From Nitratireductor sp. XY-223 (GTDB taxonomy: Bacteria; Pseudomonadota; Alphaproteobacteria; Rhizobiales; Rhizobiaceae): DNA of 64,000 nucleotides. Numbering within the stretch: position 1 is the first letter of the stretch; each line of letters begins with the position of its first letter. The translations under genes were made by a program, and so were the position numbers. Below are positions 23,754-31,082 of this stretch, in pieces. The notes under the pieces are model-generated. The model was not told where the DNA came from. It saw only the letters and a list, made by a program, of their open reading frames with translations, and did no database searches. The stretch spans positions 124,001 to 188,000 of the forward strand of contig NZ_SPNT01000001.1 of the NCBI RefSeq assembly GCF_004959855.1, in the 5' to 3' direction.

Positions 23754-25223
23754 ATGCCACTGAACACTGTCCTGAAACCGGTTCGCGCCATTGCGGTGAT
23801 TACAGCGCTCGGGGTGGCCGCGGTCCAGTTTGCGGATTTGGGTGTTCGCCCGGCACAGGCCGCGCAGGGGCCGGAATCGGTCGCCGACCTGGCGGAGCAA
23901 TTGCTGGATTCGGTCGTCAACATCTCGACATCGCAACGGGTGAGCAACAACCGGCGCACGCCGCGGCCGCGCATTCCGGACGGCTCGCCTTTCCAGGACT
24001 TTTTCGATGAATTCTTCGGCGAGCGCGAGGGCGAACAGGCGCCGCGCTCGCGGCGGGTCAACTCGCTTGGCTCGGGTTTTGTCATCGACAAGGAAGGCGT
24101 GATCGTCACCAACAACCACGTGATCGCCGATGCCGACGACATCGAGGTCAATTTCGCCGACGGCTCGAAGCTCTCCGCCGAAGTGGTGGGCGCCGACCCG
24201 AAGACCGATATCGCAGTCCTGCGGGTCAAACCGGAAACCCCGCTCACGGCGGTCTCGTTCGGCAATTCCGAGACCATTCGCATCGGCGACTGGGTCATGG
24301 CGATCGGCAACCCGTTCGGTCTTGGCGGAACCGTGACCACGGGGATCGTCTCGGCCCGCGGCCGCGACATCAATTCCGGCCCCTATGACAATTTCATTCA
24401 GACGGACGCGGCCATCAACCGCGGCAATTCCGGCGGCCCTCTCTTCAATCAGACGGGTGAGGTGATCGGCGTCAACACGGCGATCATATCGCCGACGGGC
24501 GGATCCATCGGTATCGGTTTTGCGGTGCCGTCGGACCTGGTCAAATCGGTCGTCGCGCAGCTGATCGAGTTTGGCGAGACGCGCCGCGGCTGGCTGGGCG
24601 TGCGCATCCAGCCGGTGACCGACGATATCGCCGAAAGCCTCGATATGAAGGAGGCCATGGGCGCCCTGGTTGCCGGAATCATCAAGGGCGGACCGGTGGA
24701 TGACGGGTCTATCCAGCCCGGCGACGTGATCATCCGCTTCGACGGCCAGGCCGTCGAGGACATGCGCGACCTGCCGCGGATCGTGGCGGAAAGCCCGGTC
24801 GGCAAGGAAGTCGAGGTCGTTATCATCCGCAAGGGCAAGGAAGAGACGATTGCGGTCACGCTCGGACGCCTCGAAGACGGCGAACAGCTCATTGCCCAGG
24901 CGCAGCAGAGCGATGAGCCCGAAACCGCCACAGTTCTCGGCATGGAACTCGCCGAGCTCGACAGCGCGCTGCGCGAGAAGTACGAGATTTCCGAAAATGT
25001 CGAGGGCGTGGTCATCGTCAACGTGGATGAAGACTCTTCCGCTGCGGAAAAACGCATTGTCGCCGGCGACGTGATCGTCGAGGTGGCGCAGGAGGTGGTC
25101 AAGTCGCCCCAGGAAGTGTCCGACCGGGTCACGAAGCTGAAGGACGACGGGCGGCGCAACGCGCTGCTGATGATCGCCAACACGATCGGCGAACTGCGGT
25201 TCGTCACCGTACCAATGCGGTAG
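23754..25223 (+). CDS. degP: DegP/HtrA-family (Do) periplasmic serine protease
   Basis: 489 residues from the ATG at 23754, preceded by GGGAGAGAG. A signal peptide runs to about ARPAQA-A in the low thirties. The trypsin-like triad is intact: His in TNNHVIAD, Asp in KTDIAVLRV and Ser in NRGNSGGPLFNQTG. Two PDZ domains follow, starting at RRGWLGVRIQPV and near ATVLGMELAELD. It degrades or chaperones misfolded envelope proteins, fitting its place after hflK-hflC. The last 90 bases plus stop are repeated 1,305 bp downstream beyond an inserted gene. Confidence 0.94.
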   Translation: MPLNTVLKPVRAIAVITALGVAAVQFADLGVRPAQAAQGPESVADLAEQLLDSVVNISTSQRVSNNRRTPRPRIPDGSPFQDFFDEFFGEREGEQAPRSRRVNSLGSGFVIDKEGVIVTNNHVIADADDIEVNFADGSKLSAEVVGADPKTDIAVLRVKPETPLTAVSFGNSETIRIGDWVMAIGNPFGLGGTVTTGIVSARGRDINSGPYDNFIQTDAAINRGNSGGPLFNQTGEVIGVNTAIISPTGGSIGIGFAVPSDLVKSVVAQLIEFGETRRGWLGVRIQPVTDDIAESLDMKEAMGALVAGIIKGGPVDDGSIQPGDVIIRFDGQAVEDMRDLPRIVAESPVGKEVEVVIIRKGKEETIAVTLGRLEDGEQLIAQAQQSDEPETATVLGMELAELDSALREKYEISENVEGVVIVNVDEDSSAAEKRIVAGDVIVEVAQEVVKSPQEVSDRVTKLKDDGRRNALLMIANTIGELRFVTVPMR

Positions 25224-25230
25224 CAGGTCC
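25134..25230 (+). repeat. Direct repeat, copy 1 (native degP 3' end)
   Basis: The last 29 codons, stop and a few following bases of degP. The same sequence recurs at 26439-26535 in the same orientation, with one mismatch through the stop codon (A at 25214, G at 26519) and looser similarity beyond it. The pair brackets an AT-rich gene. Confidence 0.95.
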
Positions 25231-25249
25231 GGGCGCGGCCGGCTGCGGC

Positions 25250-26200
25250 CTAGCCGATGCTCTCATGTTTCTTATTCGTGCTGGCAGTACTTTTGACTTG
25301 ATCTTTCATGGTTCGCATCAGGTGACTCATTGTGTCCATAGATTCACGTGCAAAGCTTACGTCAGCGTTCTTTAGTAGGTATGTGTCGGGCCATCTGATG
25401 TCCTCGCTAAGCAGTGCAATCAACGGTTCCATTCTATTTTTCTGGTCCGTTGGCATCTCCTTTACGCACAGATATGCTAGAAGATATTTGTCAAATATGG
25501 ATTTTATTTTAATTAGATAGGTCGAAGTATCAACGAACTGGCTATACTGTTTCAAAAACCATGCAGCCAAAAATTCAACAAATACAAATAGGACGGAACA
25601 CGAGACAATCCCGTAAATGTACTGCTTTTGGAATCCCGTTAGATAGGAAATTATTTGCCAGGCAACTATCGTAGCGACAAAAAAGGCAATGCCCATGCGG
25701 GCGTACAATGTACCTCTATCCAGAAGGATGGAAGCTTTTTCATCATACAGAACGGCTTTTGATTCCAGTGCCGCACTCAGTTGATGAAAATACGTTACGA
25801 AAGATTTTGCGGCATCAACCCTTGCCTCGTTGTCTTTGTTTTGTGCCTTCCTGTAAATCTCCTCAATTTTGTCATAGTCAATCGGCACTCCAGCGTCTTT
25901 GGCAACCCTTATGGTAGTGGCAATTTCGCTGTCAAATTGCTTTTGTTTTTCCTGCCTAGTTCGATCGTCTATCTCTGAAAACGAGCTAACTCTTCCAGCC
26001 AAATATGTAGCCCAAAATAAGCCAAAAGAACCTGCCAATGCTGCCGAAGCGGCAAGGAGAAATGGGCCCTGATCTGTCCAAAATTGAACGCTCGATGAAG
26101 AAAATGGGAAGAGCGCGTAAACAAAGGAAAACAACAACGATACCAAAGAGACCAATACAACTGCAAGTCGAAGCGTCTGGGAGGTCTGCACGTAAAACAT
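25250..26200 (-). CDS. Orphan four-helix membrane protein in an AT-rich insert
   Basis: 316 residues, not recognised. Hydrophobic segments lie at about 11-31, 46-68, 167-188 and 195-216. Between the second and third is a charged helical stretch (about 70-165) with RTRQEKQKQFDSEIATTIRV and a predicted coiled-coil character; the C-terminal 100 residues are soluble. Codon use and base composition are clearly more AT-rich than every neighbouring gene. It is antisense to degP and is enclosed by two copies of the degP 3' end, so it was probably acquired. No signal peptide beyond the first helix, no catalytic motif and no partner gene. The start at 26200 has only a weak ribosome-binding site; the function is unknown. 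Confidence 0.7.
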   Translation of the reverse strand: MFYVQTSQTLRLAVVLVSLVSLLFSFVYALFPFSSSSVQFWTDQGPFLLAASAALAGSFGLFWATYLAGRVSSFSEIDDRTRQEKQKQFDSEIATTIRVAKDAGVPIDYDKIEEIYRKAQNKDNEARVDAAKSFVTYFHQLSAALESKAVLYDEKASILLDRGTLYARMGIAFFVATIVAWQIISYLTGFQKQYIYGIVSCSVLFVFVEFLAAWFLKQYSQFVDTSTYLIKIKSIFDKYLLAYLCVKEMPTDQKNRMEPLIALLSEDIRWPDTYLLKNADVSFARESMDTMSHLMRTMKDQVKSTASTNKKHESIG

Positions 26201-26438
26201 ATGCTTTACCCATTCTTCTGATATTGAGATCCACTAAAATCTATACGAGCATCGACGGTCGACAAAATCAATCACAGGCCGAAGCTTGGCTCATTTTCAG
26301 TTGATCGCAATCTGCGCCACGTGCCAGAGATCATGCGCTGATTCTGCTGGCCAGATTGAAAATCGGCGTGATGGTGTTGCAGTGGTTCAGATTGAATGCT
26401 TTGAGGGCAACCTAATTTGAAGAACTTTATTTGTTGCC
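26201..26438. other. AT-rich intergenic part of the insert
   Basis: Between the orphan gene's start and the second degP repeat. No coding frame, tRNA, transposase remnant or clear inverted repeat is visible; it presumably holds the orphan gene's promoter on the minus strand. Confidence 0.5.
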
Positions 26439-26535
26439 AAGCTGAAGGACGACGGGCGGCGCAACGCGCTGCTGATGATCGCCAACACGATCGGCGAACT
26501 GCGGTTCGTCACCGTACCGATGCGGTAGCATGTCC
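26439..26535 (+). repeat. Direct repeat, copy 2 (duplicate of the degP 3' end)
   Basis: Matches 25134-25230 with one mismatch through the stop codon. It encodes the same C-terminus (ending RFVTVPMR then TAG) but has no start of its own, so it is a gene fragment left by a duplication or insertion. Confidence 0.95.
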
Positions 26536-26555
26536 CGGGCGCTGCCGGCCGTGGC

Positions 26556-27119
26556 TCAGCCGCGCCGTGCCAGCCATTCAGGAGCCGTCACCGCATAATA
26601 GGCGTGGCGACGCAGGTGGACATGGCTGTCGGGAACGAACGGGTGATCGAAGTCGCGCGAAGGTTGGTGGCGCATGCCGATCCGATCCATGACGGCCGTT
26701 GACCGGACATTTTCGGGAACGGCAAAGGCGACGACCTGGTCCAGGCCGTGTTCCTCGAAACCGATCCTCAGCAATTCACGCGCCGCCTCTGTGACGTAGC
26801 CCTTGCCCCACGCTTCGGGCACAAGTCGCCAGCCGATCTCGATGATGCCTCGGGGCACATGCGGTTCAAGATTCGTCGGTATAGACAGTCCCATGAAACC
26901 GATTGCCGTTTCGTCGTCGCGCGTCTGCAAGGCGCCGAAGCCGTAGCCGGTCTCGTTGATTTCGCGCATGATCCTGTCCATGACCTCCCGGGACTGCTGC
27001 CGATCGCGGCGGAAGGGAAAGAAGGCCATGACCGTCTCGTCGGAATTGAGGCGATGGAACGCGTCTTCGTCCGACGGCCGCCAGTTGCGGAGGATCAGGC
27101 GCTCTGTTTCGGCGATCAT
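26556..27119 (-). CDS. GNAT-family N-acetyltransferase (RimJ/RimL-like)
   Basis: 187 residues. It begins ETERLILRNWRPSDEDAFHR, the usual opening of RimJ/RimL-type GNAT enzymes, with IEIGWRLVPEAWGKGYVTEA forming the acetyl-CoA pyrophosphate loop (R/QxxGxG/A variant WGKGY) and AFAVPENVRSTAVMDRIGM as the C-terminal acceptor-side motif. The acceptor is unknown. Its ATG overlaps the serB stop (ATGA), so it is translated together with serB. Confidence 0.88.
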   Translation of the reverse strand: MIAETERLILRNWRPSDEDAFHRLNSDETVMAFFPFRRDRQQSREVMDRIMREINETGYGFGALQTRDDETAIGFMGLSIPTNLEPHVPRGIIEIGWRLVPEAWGKGYVTEAARELLRIGFEEHGLDQVVAFAVPENVRSTAVMDRIGMRHQPSRDFDHPFVPDSHVHLRRHAYYAVTAPEWLARRG

Positions 27120-28957: not shown

Positions 28958-30862
28958 TTACTTGCCGGCAGGCGGCGTTTCTGCCTTTTTCAGCAGTGTC
29001 GCGCGGTGCGGCGACTTCTTCAGCAGCGAATCGCGAAGATCGTTGCCGTGGACGGAACCGAGCGACGAGGGTTGCGGCGCCGGTTCGTCGAATTCCTCGG
29101 GTGCGTCCGACAGCGGAGCCGCCGGCCCGCTGATCGCCTTTTCCAGATCCGCCAGATCGGCAAGCTGCGGCTGCAGCGTCGCGCCGCCCTGCGGCGGCAT
29201 GCCGGAGGTGCCCAGCGGAACTTCCGTGTGCCGCATGCTCTGAATGATGTGCTGCACATCGAGCTGGCCGTCCCTGCCGCGCGCCATGGCACTGGCTCCG
29301 TGGCCGCTGACGGTTTTCGGCAACTCGTGTTTCGGAAGGCGCTCGAAACACATGCGCATCGGCACGGCGACAGCCTCACCGAAGGCGATGGCCTCGCCGT
29401 TGCCGATCGACGACAGGAAGCTGATCGTCGAGCTGGACGAATTCGAGATCGCAGAGCGGATGATCTCCTGGTCGCGGTCGTTGGCGAGGCGCATGGCGAA
29501 GACCGTCGAGCACTGCGACAGGATCGTCGGATCGAGTTCTCCGGGGCGCTGGGTTATGACGCCGAGACTGACGCCGTATTTGCGGCCCTCCTTGGCGATA
29601 CGCGCCACGGCCTGCCGGGTGGGGAAGAAGCCGAGGCTGGCATCTGCCGGAACGTAGCGGTGCGCTTCCTCGCAAAGCACCAGGATGCGCATCTGCCCGT
29701 TGCTCCACAGCGCGATTTCGAACGCCATGCGGCACAGCACCGACGCCACCGCATTGACGACCTCGGACGGGATGCCGGAGAGCTGGAACGACGTTATCGG
29801 CTGACCGTTGCCCGGGATGCGGAAGATCTCGCTGATTACATCGGCCAGGTTGTCGATGATGGTGTTGGTGGAGAACATGAAGCGAAAGCGCGGATCGTTG
29901 ATCACCGAGGCAATGCGCTGCTTGAGGTTGCGCAAGAACGGTTTTTCCTCGCGCCCGTCAAGCTGTCCGATGCGTTCGTCGATCAGCGCCAGCAGATCTG
30001 CGACGCGGTAGGGGACCGGCGTGTCGGAGGTGATCGAGGAACGATCCACCTTGCGCGTTACCGGGCGGCCATCGGCCGTGCCCTTGAAGTTCCGTTTCGC
30101 TTCCGCGATGAGATCGCGCAACATGTCGACTTCTTCGGCGACCGTCGGACGGCCGCGGAAGATCACCTCCGCGAACTCCTCGAGCCTGAACAGCCAGAAC
30201 GGCAGGTCGAGCGTGTCCGTTTCGATAAGGTGGGCCCGCGACTTGAAGGCCGACGCGAATTCGTTGTGCGGATCGAGCACCAGCACACGCAGGTCCGGAC
30301 ACACATCGACGATGCGGTTGACTAGCAGCGAAACGGCTGTCGATTTACCAACACCGGTGGTTCCGACGATAGCAAAGTGGCGGTCGAGAAGGGCATCGGC
30401 CGAAATGCAGGACGGAATTTCCGAGTTCTGCGTCAAGTGGCCGATGGTAACCGGACTGGCGGTGTCGATCGAATAGATGGCATCCAGGTCGGTGGTGCGG
30501 ATCTGGTGTGCGACGGCACCAAGCGTCGGATAATCGGAAATACCTGCGCTGAAACTTGTCTCATCGCCCTCACCACGGATCTCGCCAACGAGCTCGACCT
30601 CGAAATGCATGGTGTTGGGTTCATCTTCAAGCCAGATCTCGCCCGGACTCTGGATGCTGAAAACGAGCGCCACGACACGGTTTCGGCCCACCCGGATCGA
30701 GATGAGCCGGCCGACAGACAGTGTCGCCGACAAGGCGTGTTCGTTGATCGGAACACGGGCGGAAATGGTTGCGCGTGCGCCATTGCACCTTACAACATGG
30801 CCGAGGACGCGGGACGGAAACGAAACGTCGCGCCTTTCCTCTACTCCTGGTCTCTTGTTCAT
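28958..30862 (-). CDS. HerA-like P-loop ATPase (DUF87 family)
   Basis: 634 residues from the ATG at 30862; an ATG five codons earlier is also possible. An N-terminal beta-barrel-like region (about 1-150) precedes the ATPase core: Walker A GTTGVGKST, an insertion with the arginine-rich stretch, Walker B region MRILVLCEEAHRYVPAD, and the late motif GEAIAFGEAVAVPMRM. This is the HAS-barrel plus DUF87 layout of HerA-type hexameric translocases. No NurA nuclease partner is adjacent, so it is probably the stand-alone bacterial form. About 90 C-terminal residues are proline-, alanine- and acid-rich and probably disordered. Confidence 0.85.
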   Translation of the reverse strand: MNKRPGVEERRDVSFPSRVLGHVVRCNGARATISARVPINEHALSATLSVGRLISIRVGRNRVVALVFSIQSPGEIWLEDEPNTMHFEVELVGEIRGEGDETSFSAGISDYPTLGAVAHQIRTTDLDAIYSIDTASPVTIGHLTQNSEIPSCISADALLDRHFAIVGTTGVGKSTAVSLLVNRIVDVCPDLRVLVLDPHNEFASAFKSRAHLIETDTLDLPFWLFRLEEFAEVIFRGRPTVAEEVDMLRDLIAEAKRNFKGTADGRPVTRKVDRSSITSDTPVPYRVADLLALIDERIGQLDGREEKPFLRNLKQRIASVINDPRFRFMFSTNTIIDNLADVISEIFRIPGNGQPITSFQLSGIPSEVVNAVASVLCRMAFEIALWSNGQMRILVLCEEAHRYVPADASLGFFPTRQAVARIAKEGRKYGVSLGVITQRPGELDPTILSQCSTVFAMRLANDRDQEIIRSAISNSSSSTISFLSSIGNGEAIAFGEAVAVPMRMCFERLPKHELPKTVSGHGASAMARGRDGQLDVQHIIQSMRHTEVPLGTSGMPPQGGATLQPQLADLADLEKAISGPAAPLSDAPEEFDEPAPQPSSLGSVHGNDLRDSLLKKSPHRATLLKKAETPPAGK

Positions 30863-31053
30863 GCTGCCCCGTTTCATACAGTTAAGCGTGCGGAGACTGC
30901 CCGGAACACCCATCAAGTCCAATCTGAGCAGGCCCCAGTGCGTTAAGCTTAAGTAACTTGTGTTAACAACCCGTTGTCTTTGCAGGTTAATGAGTTGTCG
31001 ACGCCAATCAGTGCCGCGGGCCGGATCCCGGCGCCGAATCGGGGTACGCGGCA

Positions 31054-31082
31054 TTGACGCGCGGTTTCTTTGCGGCTAACGT
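31054..31082 (+). promoter_or_regulatory. Probable ilvB promoter (-35/-10)
   Basis: TTGACG at 31054-31059 and TAACGT at 31077-31082 are 17 bp apart. Initiation six to eight bases after the -10 would fall at 31089-31090, on the first base of the leader-peptide ATG, making a leaderless leader as reported for rhizobial trp attenuation. The -10 is weak, so the call is tentative. Confidence 0.5.

Follow-up and report, generated by a model that had tools for sequence, protein, structure and literature searches.

A low-GC membrane protein gene between two copies of the degP–GNAT gene ends in Nitratireductor sp. XY-223, a possible relic of a temperate-phage-like integrative element

The insert between degP and GNAT and its repeated borders

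Here, we analysed a stretch of 64,000 nucleotides (nt) of the genome of Nitratireductor sp. XY-223 (contig NZ_SPNT01000001.1, positions 124,001 to 188,000; hereafter, the window), in which a 1.2-kb insert with one gene of note, encoding a membrane protein, separates the converging genes for the Do-family serine protease DegP and a GNAT acetyltransferase and is bordered on both sides by copies of the ends of these two genes (Table 1). The insert is present once in the host genome and is foreign to the lineage. Indeed, in all 7 same-genus genomes drawn (G001–G007), a single degP end is followed by the GNAT gene, with no insert in between, as anticipated by an earlier interpretation made from the letters of the window (hereafter, the sequence-only reading); the two genes converge across a gap of about 30–96 nt, an approximate range measured to the last aligned residues. 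The order hflK-hflC-degP-GNAT-serB-miaA-HerA-like-ilvB is kept in the longer regions retrieved from G007 and G006, where hflC through ilvB are covered in both genomes and the G007 region breaks off within hflK. The gene at 28958–31054, between miaA and ilvB, which we take to encode a HerA-like ATPase from its sequence rather than from a profile search, was considered as a possible insert in its own right and ruled out, because its conservation in G007 and G006 makes it part of the core order.

The two borders form a direct repeat, 25134–25233 against 26439–26538, with 97% identity over 100 nt, a spacing of 1305 and the same strand. This confirms the observation of the sequence-only reading that the degP 3′ end recurs in the same orientation with one mismatch up to the stop, and the repeated block proved to be longer than that reading had noted. 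The last 29 codons of degP (from codon 461) and the stop (25134–25223) are identical to 26439–26528 save for a single mismatch shortly before the stop, CCA/CCG, which is synonymous (Pro in both), and the longest exact stretch common to the two copies spans 80 bp (25134–25213). Beyond the degP stop, tails of 33 and 34 nt align with 27 identical positions, 6 differences and one gap; when one copy was shuffled 2000 times, this score was never reached. Read from the minus strand, the tail encodes the last codon and stop of GNAT, and the full block, 123 bp on the left and 124 bp on the right, ends just past the last GNAT codon. The block is, then, made up of both converging gene ends and the gap between them.

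The degP reading frame is intact, its 3′ end lies inside the left copy, and the C-terminal residues encoded there are those that the right copy would give. The membrane protein gene runs into the left copy from the other side, with its final Gly codon and stop inside the repeat; it ends GGC TAG, in register with the GGC TGA of GNAT, so that its last codon and stop appear to have been borrowed from the GNAT end. Such borrowing is what a chance fusion would yield, and it speaks for a scenario in which imprecise end-joining or template switching duplicated the gene-end block during capture of a stray fragment, leaving a membrane gene without a role and in decay. We consider this scenario improbable, given that the open reading frame (ORF) is intact through the core and motifs conserved in its protein family and that the tails differ more than a single recent duplication would allow.

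The divergence of the tails also bears on their provenance. The right copy, which is continuous with GNAT, carries the CCG that is also found in the closest relative, G007, and for this reason the left tail looks imported. Because the degP end of this relative is only 89% identical at the DNA level and the two copies are 97% alike, both copies probably stem from the species of the window or one very near to it. An imported left tail fits better than a simple old duplication, in that the tails differ at 6 of 33 sites plus the gap, whereas the free-standing degP fragment on the right differs at 1 of 90. On the same grounds, we rejected a simple target-site duplication at insertion as the main reading, the right-hand degP fragment being free of constraint. 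The end of the left copy (25210–25245) also matches, at 33 of 36 nt, a G006 gene with a Guanylate_cyc domain, at its Ala/Gly-rich end (L145:1486–1521), with the matches to that gene in G000, G004 and G007 stopping short of the matching tail. This match may be fortuitous, as we think, or may mark another site visited by the same element.

Table 1. Features at the degP–GNAT junction of the window
Feature	Position	Strand	Evidence
degP, Do-family serine protease	23754..25223	+	TIGR02037 over cut-off; 95% identity over 489 aa in G007
Left repeat copy, candidate attachment site: degP 29 codons and stop, spacer, diverged GNAT last codon and stop	25134..25256	+	80 bp exact, then 1 mismatch to stop
Membrane protein gene, 316 aa, four predicted helices	25250..26200	-	ORF, family alignments, structure model
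Interval without recognisable gene, 238 bp, promoter region or scar	26201..26438	.	Sequence searches
Right repeat copy, candidate attachment site, continuous with native GNAT 3′ end	26439..26562	+	Repeat alignment; CCG as in G007
GNAT acetyltransferase, native degP neighbour	26556..27119	-	PF13302; adjoins degP in 7/7 same-genus genomes

The membrane protein

The sequence-only reading described a single minus-strand gene with four membrane helices between the copies, and our analysis agrees: the gene is the longest ORF of the insert, the remaining ORFs between the copies either overlap it and reach at most 91 aa or run into the right copy and GNAT, and the hydropathy profile shows four hydrophobic stretches, near residues 6–38, 46–65, 165–190 and 193–217. 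Charged residues are concentrated in two long segments, with 34 in residues 69–165 and 28 in residues 217–316, and number one in total across the loops 1–9, 31–41 and 189–193. Judging the orientation from loop size, these two segments would be cytoplasmic, and the loops outside them are few and short. A model built with a 35-row family alignment is helical, with a mean predicted local distance difference test score (pLDDT) of 81.4 and a predicted template modelling score (pTM) of 0.67, and is consistent with the hydropathy; in it, helices 134–188 and 193–248 would form a membrane hairpin reaching into the cytoplasm. The motifs D.KAS.LLD.G and VEFLAAWFLKQY-type, conserved in the family, are present in the window protein.

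The GC content of the gene is 0.432 against 0.621 for the window, and the only 4 of 631 tiles of 951 bp with a GC content of 0.45 or less all lie at this gene. Thus, the base composition is unlike that of the neighbours, as the sequence-only reading had stated, but its value as a sign of foreignness is lower than that reading implied, because relatives elsewhere show low GC too: at all 34 measured loci (of 36 records), the gene lies below its surroundings, by 0.141 on average and in one case (L088) by only 0.001.

No convincing match to the window protein was found in Pfam, PADLOC, NCBIfam or PHROGs. Scans of 35 family members with Pfam and PADLOC gave scattered matches. Pfam DUF2207_C was found in 7 of the 35 (best E 1.6e-6), the window protein not being among them, and PADLOC returned 11 families, all weakly: CARF_TM in 6 members (best E 0.021) and the others in 1 each, the best being PDC-M63B (1.9e-4) and PycTM (4.6e-4). 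We rejected the PADLOC matches as a guide to effector identity, taking such weak and scattered hits to reflect hydrophobic-helix bias.

Two known classes of proteins nevertheless invite comparison. The two-helix effectors of cyclic-nucleotide defence systems, PycTM and the 2TM proteins of CBASS and Panoptes, resemble the window protein in having D-x-K-A-S just before a membrane hairpin, cytoplasmic helices and an association with phages, and differ from it in that the window protein has four predicted helices, no adjacent cyclase and no PF18967 match. Specifically, PF18967 (PycTM/Pycsar effector) matches neither the host genome nor, in its Pfam list, the window protein; a profile comparison gave E of about 0.02 over about 25 columns, a weak result equalled by 2 of 100 shuffles; and the membrane gene has degP and GNAT as its neighbours, with no nucleotide cyclase gene beside it. 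The D-x-K-A-S likeness may hint at how the protein works, rather than at membership of the PycTM family. The second comparison is with MotA-like stators and with ZorA of the Zorya system. The best Protein Data Bank (PDB) match of the better of our models in Foldseek is MotA (6ysl; 3.7 Å over 119 columns), where long-helix hairpins are superposed, with a non-significant E of 1.8; the window gene has only degP and GNAT as neighbours and no MotB- or ZorB-like gene.

A rare family in mobile settings

In the sequence-only reading, the membrane gene was an orphan. A search with the single window sequence was indeed almost silent: no match came from genome contigs, plasmids, viral contigs or PDB sequences, and 50,697 phage records gave one, to Pseudomonas aeruginosa phage LPPA36 (35.5% over residues 133–299, E 1e-26), for which our literature search found no paper. 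With a two-row profile, however, 15 loci were recovered (8 viral, 7 from genome contigs); a profile of 15 rows raised the viral records to 28, the first 8 among them. Relatives are therefore held by 36 records, mostly viral (28 viral records, 7 genome contigs and LPPA36), which are not all independent, as the viral record L078 and the Desulfosporosinus contig L089 encode the same protein. Family alignments of 15 and 35 rows (A2 and A3), both leaving out L089 and LPPA36, display a conserved core with invariant residues. The closest relatives, at 38–41% identity, come from a deltaproteobacterial metagenome-assembled genome (MAG), a Desulfomicrobium MAG, a Polynucleobacter and the viral contigs L094 and L095; in the family alignment, the window protein is 41% identical to L086.

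Judged by these searches, the family is rare. Among overlapping samples of 385 genomes of the class, 398 of the phylum (searched with the two-row profile) and 297 of the order, a full match was found only in the host genome itself, and partial matches in G202, G206, G1208 and G1239 (E 1.8e-5 to 6e-4) were set aside as unconvincing, not disproved. Among the literature matches listed, we recognised no description of this membrane protein family or of the degP 3′-end site.

The settings of the relatives are frequently those of integrative phages. An integrase domain is encoded in 22 of the 28 viral records, 12 of the tyrosine and 10 of the large serine type, none having both, and it lies within 2 kb of the membrane gene in 14. 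The closest association is with serine recombinases: in all 10 serine-type viral records, and likewise in LPPA36 and Pseudomonas viridiflava L091, the 3′ end of the membrane gene, with its stop, overlaps the beginning of the serine recombinase frame (loci L082, L083, L084, L085, L091, L106, L110, L111, L113, L116, L079 and L035), by 1–4 nt in most and by up to about 35 nt in L113, counting from its longest frame. Because the frames overlap, the two genes are possibly co-translated; coupling of an effector to an integrase in this manner would be unusual. Among the tyrosine-type loci, the integrase, or its C-terminal part, directly precedes the membrane gene in L081, L095 and L098, as does a tyrosine integrase in the genome locus L092, and it lies 1.7 kb away in L094.

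Seven serine-type loci have rimO just upstream of the membrane gene; it was recognised by a profile match in L091 and L084, by domains in L110 and by the translated start alone in L079, L083, L085 and L106. According to the passage on its integration site in PMC9144972, phage JC1 integrates in the 5′ end of rimO and has its attP 41 bp upstream of its recombinase. The recombinases of JC1 and LPPA36 share 55.6% identity, and the JC1 annotation shows no gene between the attP side and the recombinase. This layout, combined with the rimO neighbour, places the membrane gene of the Pseudomonas-type loci in the stretch that separates the integrase from the rimO side.

Other settings were observed as well. 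In L087 (6646–7488) and L094 (4679–5356), the membrane gene is preceded by a DUF2971 gene, which could be a recurring partner. The membrane gene of L102 (4192–7258) is flanked by genes for a UmuC-type polymerase and an SRAP protein, an SOS-related setting, and the resemblance of the translated starts alone suggests the same for L104. In Polynucleobacter (L088:2900–8564), the relative lies about 0.16 kb from tnsA, which belongs to a Tn7-type set comprising TnsA, a protein with a Mu-type transposase C-terminal domain, TniB and TniQ; the relative may be either part of the transposon or its neighbour.

Origin and putative function of the insert

Because of where the relatives of the gene sit, we favour a mobile-element origin. 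The sequence-only reading had proposed entry either with a site-specific element or by recombination of a circular molecule; the mobile origin is supported by the settings of the relatives, and neither route is singled out by this one locus. The explanation to which we lean, with about even confidence, is that the insert is a relic or a very small form of an integrative, temperate-phage-like element that used the degP/GNAT ends as its attachment site (att) and whose cargo was probably a membrane immunity effector. A small integrative element would have inserted where degP and GNAT converge, with the degP 3′ end and the adjoining gap serving as attachment sequence. The incoming DNA would have brought its own, slightly different copy of that end, keeping the degP frame complete, and the displaced native end would have stayed beside GNAT. 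The survivor, or possibly the whole original, would consist of att, one cargo gene and att.

As in elements that target gene ends, exemplified by JC1 in rimO (PMC9144972), a host gene end is found at both borders, one of them completing the gene and keeping its frame, and the site is empty in the close relatives. The degP insert differs in that it has no recombinase of its own, contains one gene and is bordered by a block of about 123 bp, compared with 18 bp at the 5′ gene end for JC1 in the same source. Integration of e14 in icd is another example at a gene end. No report of degP/GNAT or degP/htrA as an integration site was found among the literature matches listed; a Staphylococcus phage is described as inserting upstream of htrA2 in an excerpt of PMC6036120, and degP is not named in the excerpt of PMC11476347 on Sinorhizobium integration sites. 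With the accessory cargo genes of temperate phages, the insert shares a foreign accessory gene at the cargo place, one that in the relatives is often beside an integrase; unlike those genes, the window gene stands alone with no phage gene left, and its anti-phage role is putative.

The anatomy of the locus is consistent with gene-end integration that supplies a replacement end and also with a single homologous crossover of a circle. In the latter case, circular or linear foreign DNA carrying a degP–GNAT end fragment from a sister lineage would have entered through one RecA-dependent crossover in the 80 identical bp, duplicating the fragment with no site-specific recombinase involved. A tract of 80 bp is sufficient for homologous crossover, no integrase is seen in the insert, and the block reaches beyond one gene end to include the spacer and the last GNAT codon. 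However, this route calls for a circle that had captured just this end, and half of the viral relatives have a site-specific integrase no more than 2 kb away; we regard it as rather unlikely.

If the insert did arise by site-specific integration, the missing integrase implies that either most of the element was deleted or it moved in trans. The orientation of the gene bears on the first possibility. Upstream, 238 bp separate its start from the right copy, and its 3′ end adjoins the left copy. At the Pseudomonas-type loci, rimO is located on the upstream side and the integrase on the downstream side, so that, by analogy, the integrase-bearing part would be the one absent here, which makes a consistent picture. 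The second possibility would make the insert a complete single-gene cassette and not the remainder of a larger element, mobilised by a tyrosine recombinase of the host cell itself. On its 3′ side, the membrane gene ends within the repeat, with hardly any DNA to spare, and 12 tyrosine-recombinase matches in the host genome exceed the cut-off, yet the genome contains one copy of the insert, the searches made gave no second example, and deletion can leave the same picture. We therefore consider such a cassette decidedly unlikely.

Several observations weigh against the relic or small temperate-phage-like element that we favour. As the sequence-only reading had remarked about the integrase, no integrase or phage gene is present among the ORFs of the insert; phage structural or replication genes, as expected of a prophage, are lacking between the borders, and the window protein has no significant PHROGs match. 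In the 238-bp interval, no integrase remnant was seen in comparison with the ORFs of the fetched related loci, to which it has no protein similarity below E 0.3 (the same DNA excepted); the interval has no match in plasmids and just 11 short matches (18–39 nt, E 0.013–0.09) in 60 other genomes. Homologs beside duplicated gene ends, which the sequence-only reading suggested seeking, did not convincingly appear at 23 loci of at most 16.5 kb each, which may not reach both ends of their elements: exact direct repeats of at least 15 bp across the gene were absent from 20 and spanned only 15–18 bp in 3. A degP-end search of 297 family-level genomes, scoring the top two candidates in each, gave any match in 128 and a second, weaker one (E 7e-6 to about 1e-3) in 18 besides the host; in none of the 18 did the reported positions put the second match near the first on one contig, and these second matches are taken as paralogues or chance, one (G006) having been inspected. 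A second degP-end element was likewise missing from the viral contigs, where two exact degenerate patterns, run without a positive control, hit 0 contigs. Carriage by phages is not universal either: 6 of the 28 viral records have no integrase match, in 8 of the 12 tyrosine-type records the distance between the match and the membrane gene exceeds 6 kb, and the relatives in L088 and L090 lie beside Tn7-type genes and a large helicase/nuclease gene, respectively. The likeness of the left tail to the cyclase gene of G006 is an unexplained rival to the imported-tail idea. Finally, none of the defence-effector family models gave a convincing match, and Foldseek found nothing significant in the PDB or in BFVD, the latter searched with the first, poorer model only.

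An immunity function, one of the roles put forward in the sequence-only reading, is plausible and is suggested by the position, rarity, composition, mobile context and shape of the protein. The cargo would most likely be a standing immunity effector of a prophage, directed against other phages or against superinfection, whose cytoplasmic helices may sense an invading phage or its signal, upon which the membrane part would depolarise or otherwise perturb the inner membrane.

Regardless of the route by which the gene entered Nitratireductor, the analysis adds a phage-carried membrane protein family, AT-rich in its genes, predicted to have four helices, often overlapping or beside an integrase gene and unnamed in the libraries searched, and its members are a ready list of candidates for anti-phage tests. 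Furthermore, a solitary phage-type cargo gene flanked by two att-like repeats is an arrangement that can be searched for systematically in other genomes. The insert could even be a one-gene cassette, with an att block of about 123 bp derived from converging host gene ends and only a membrane immunity gene, moved in trans by the integrase of another element. This is a long shot, but if true, such cassettes would let phage-type immunity genes spread without the phage.

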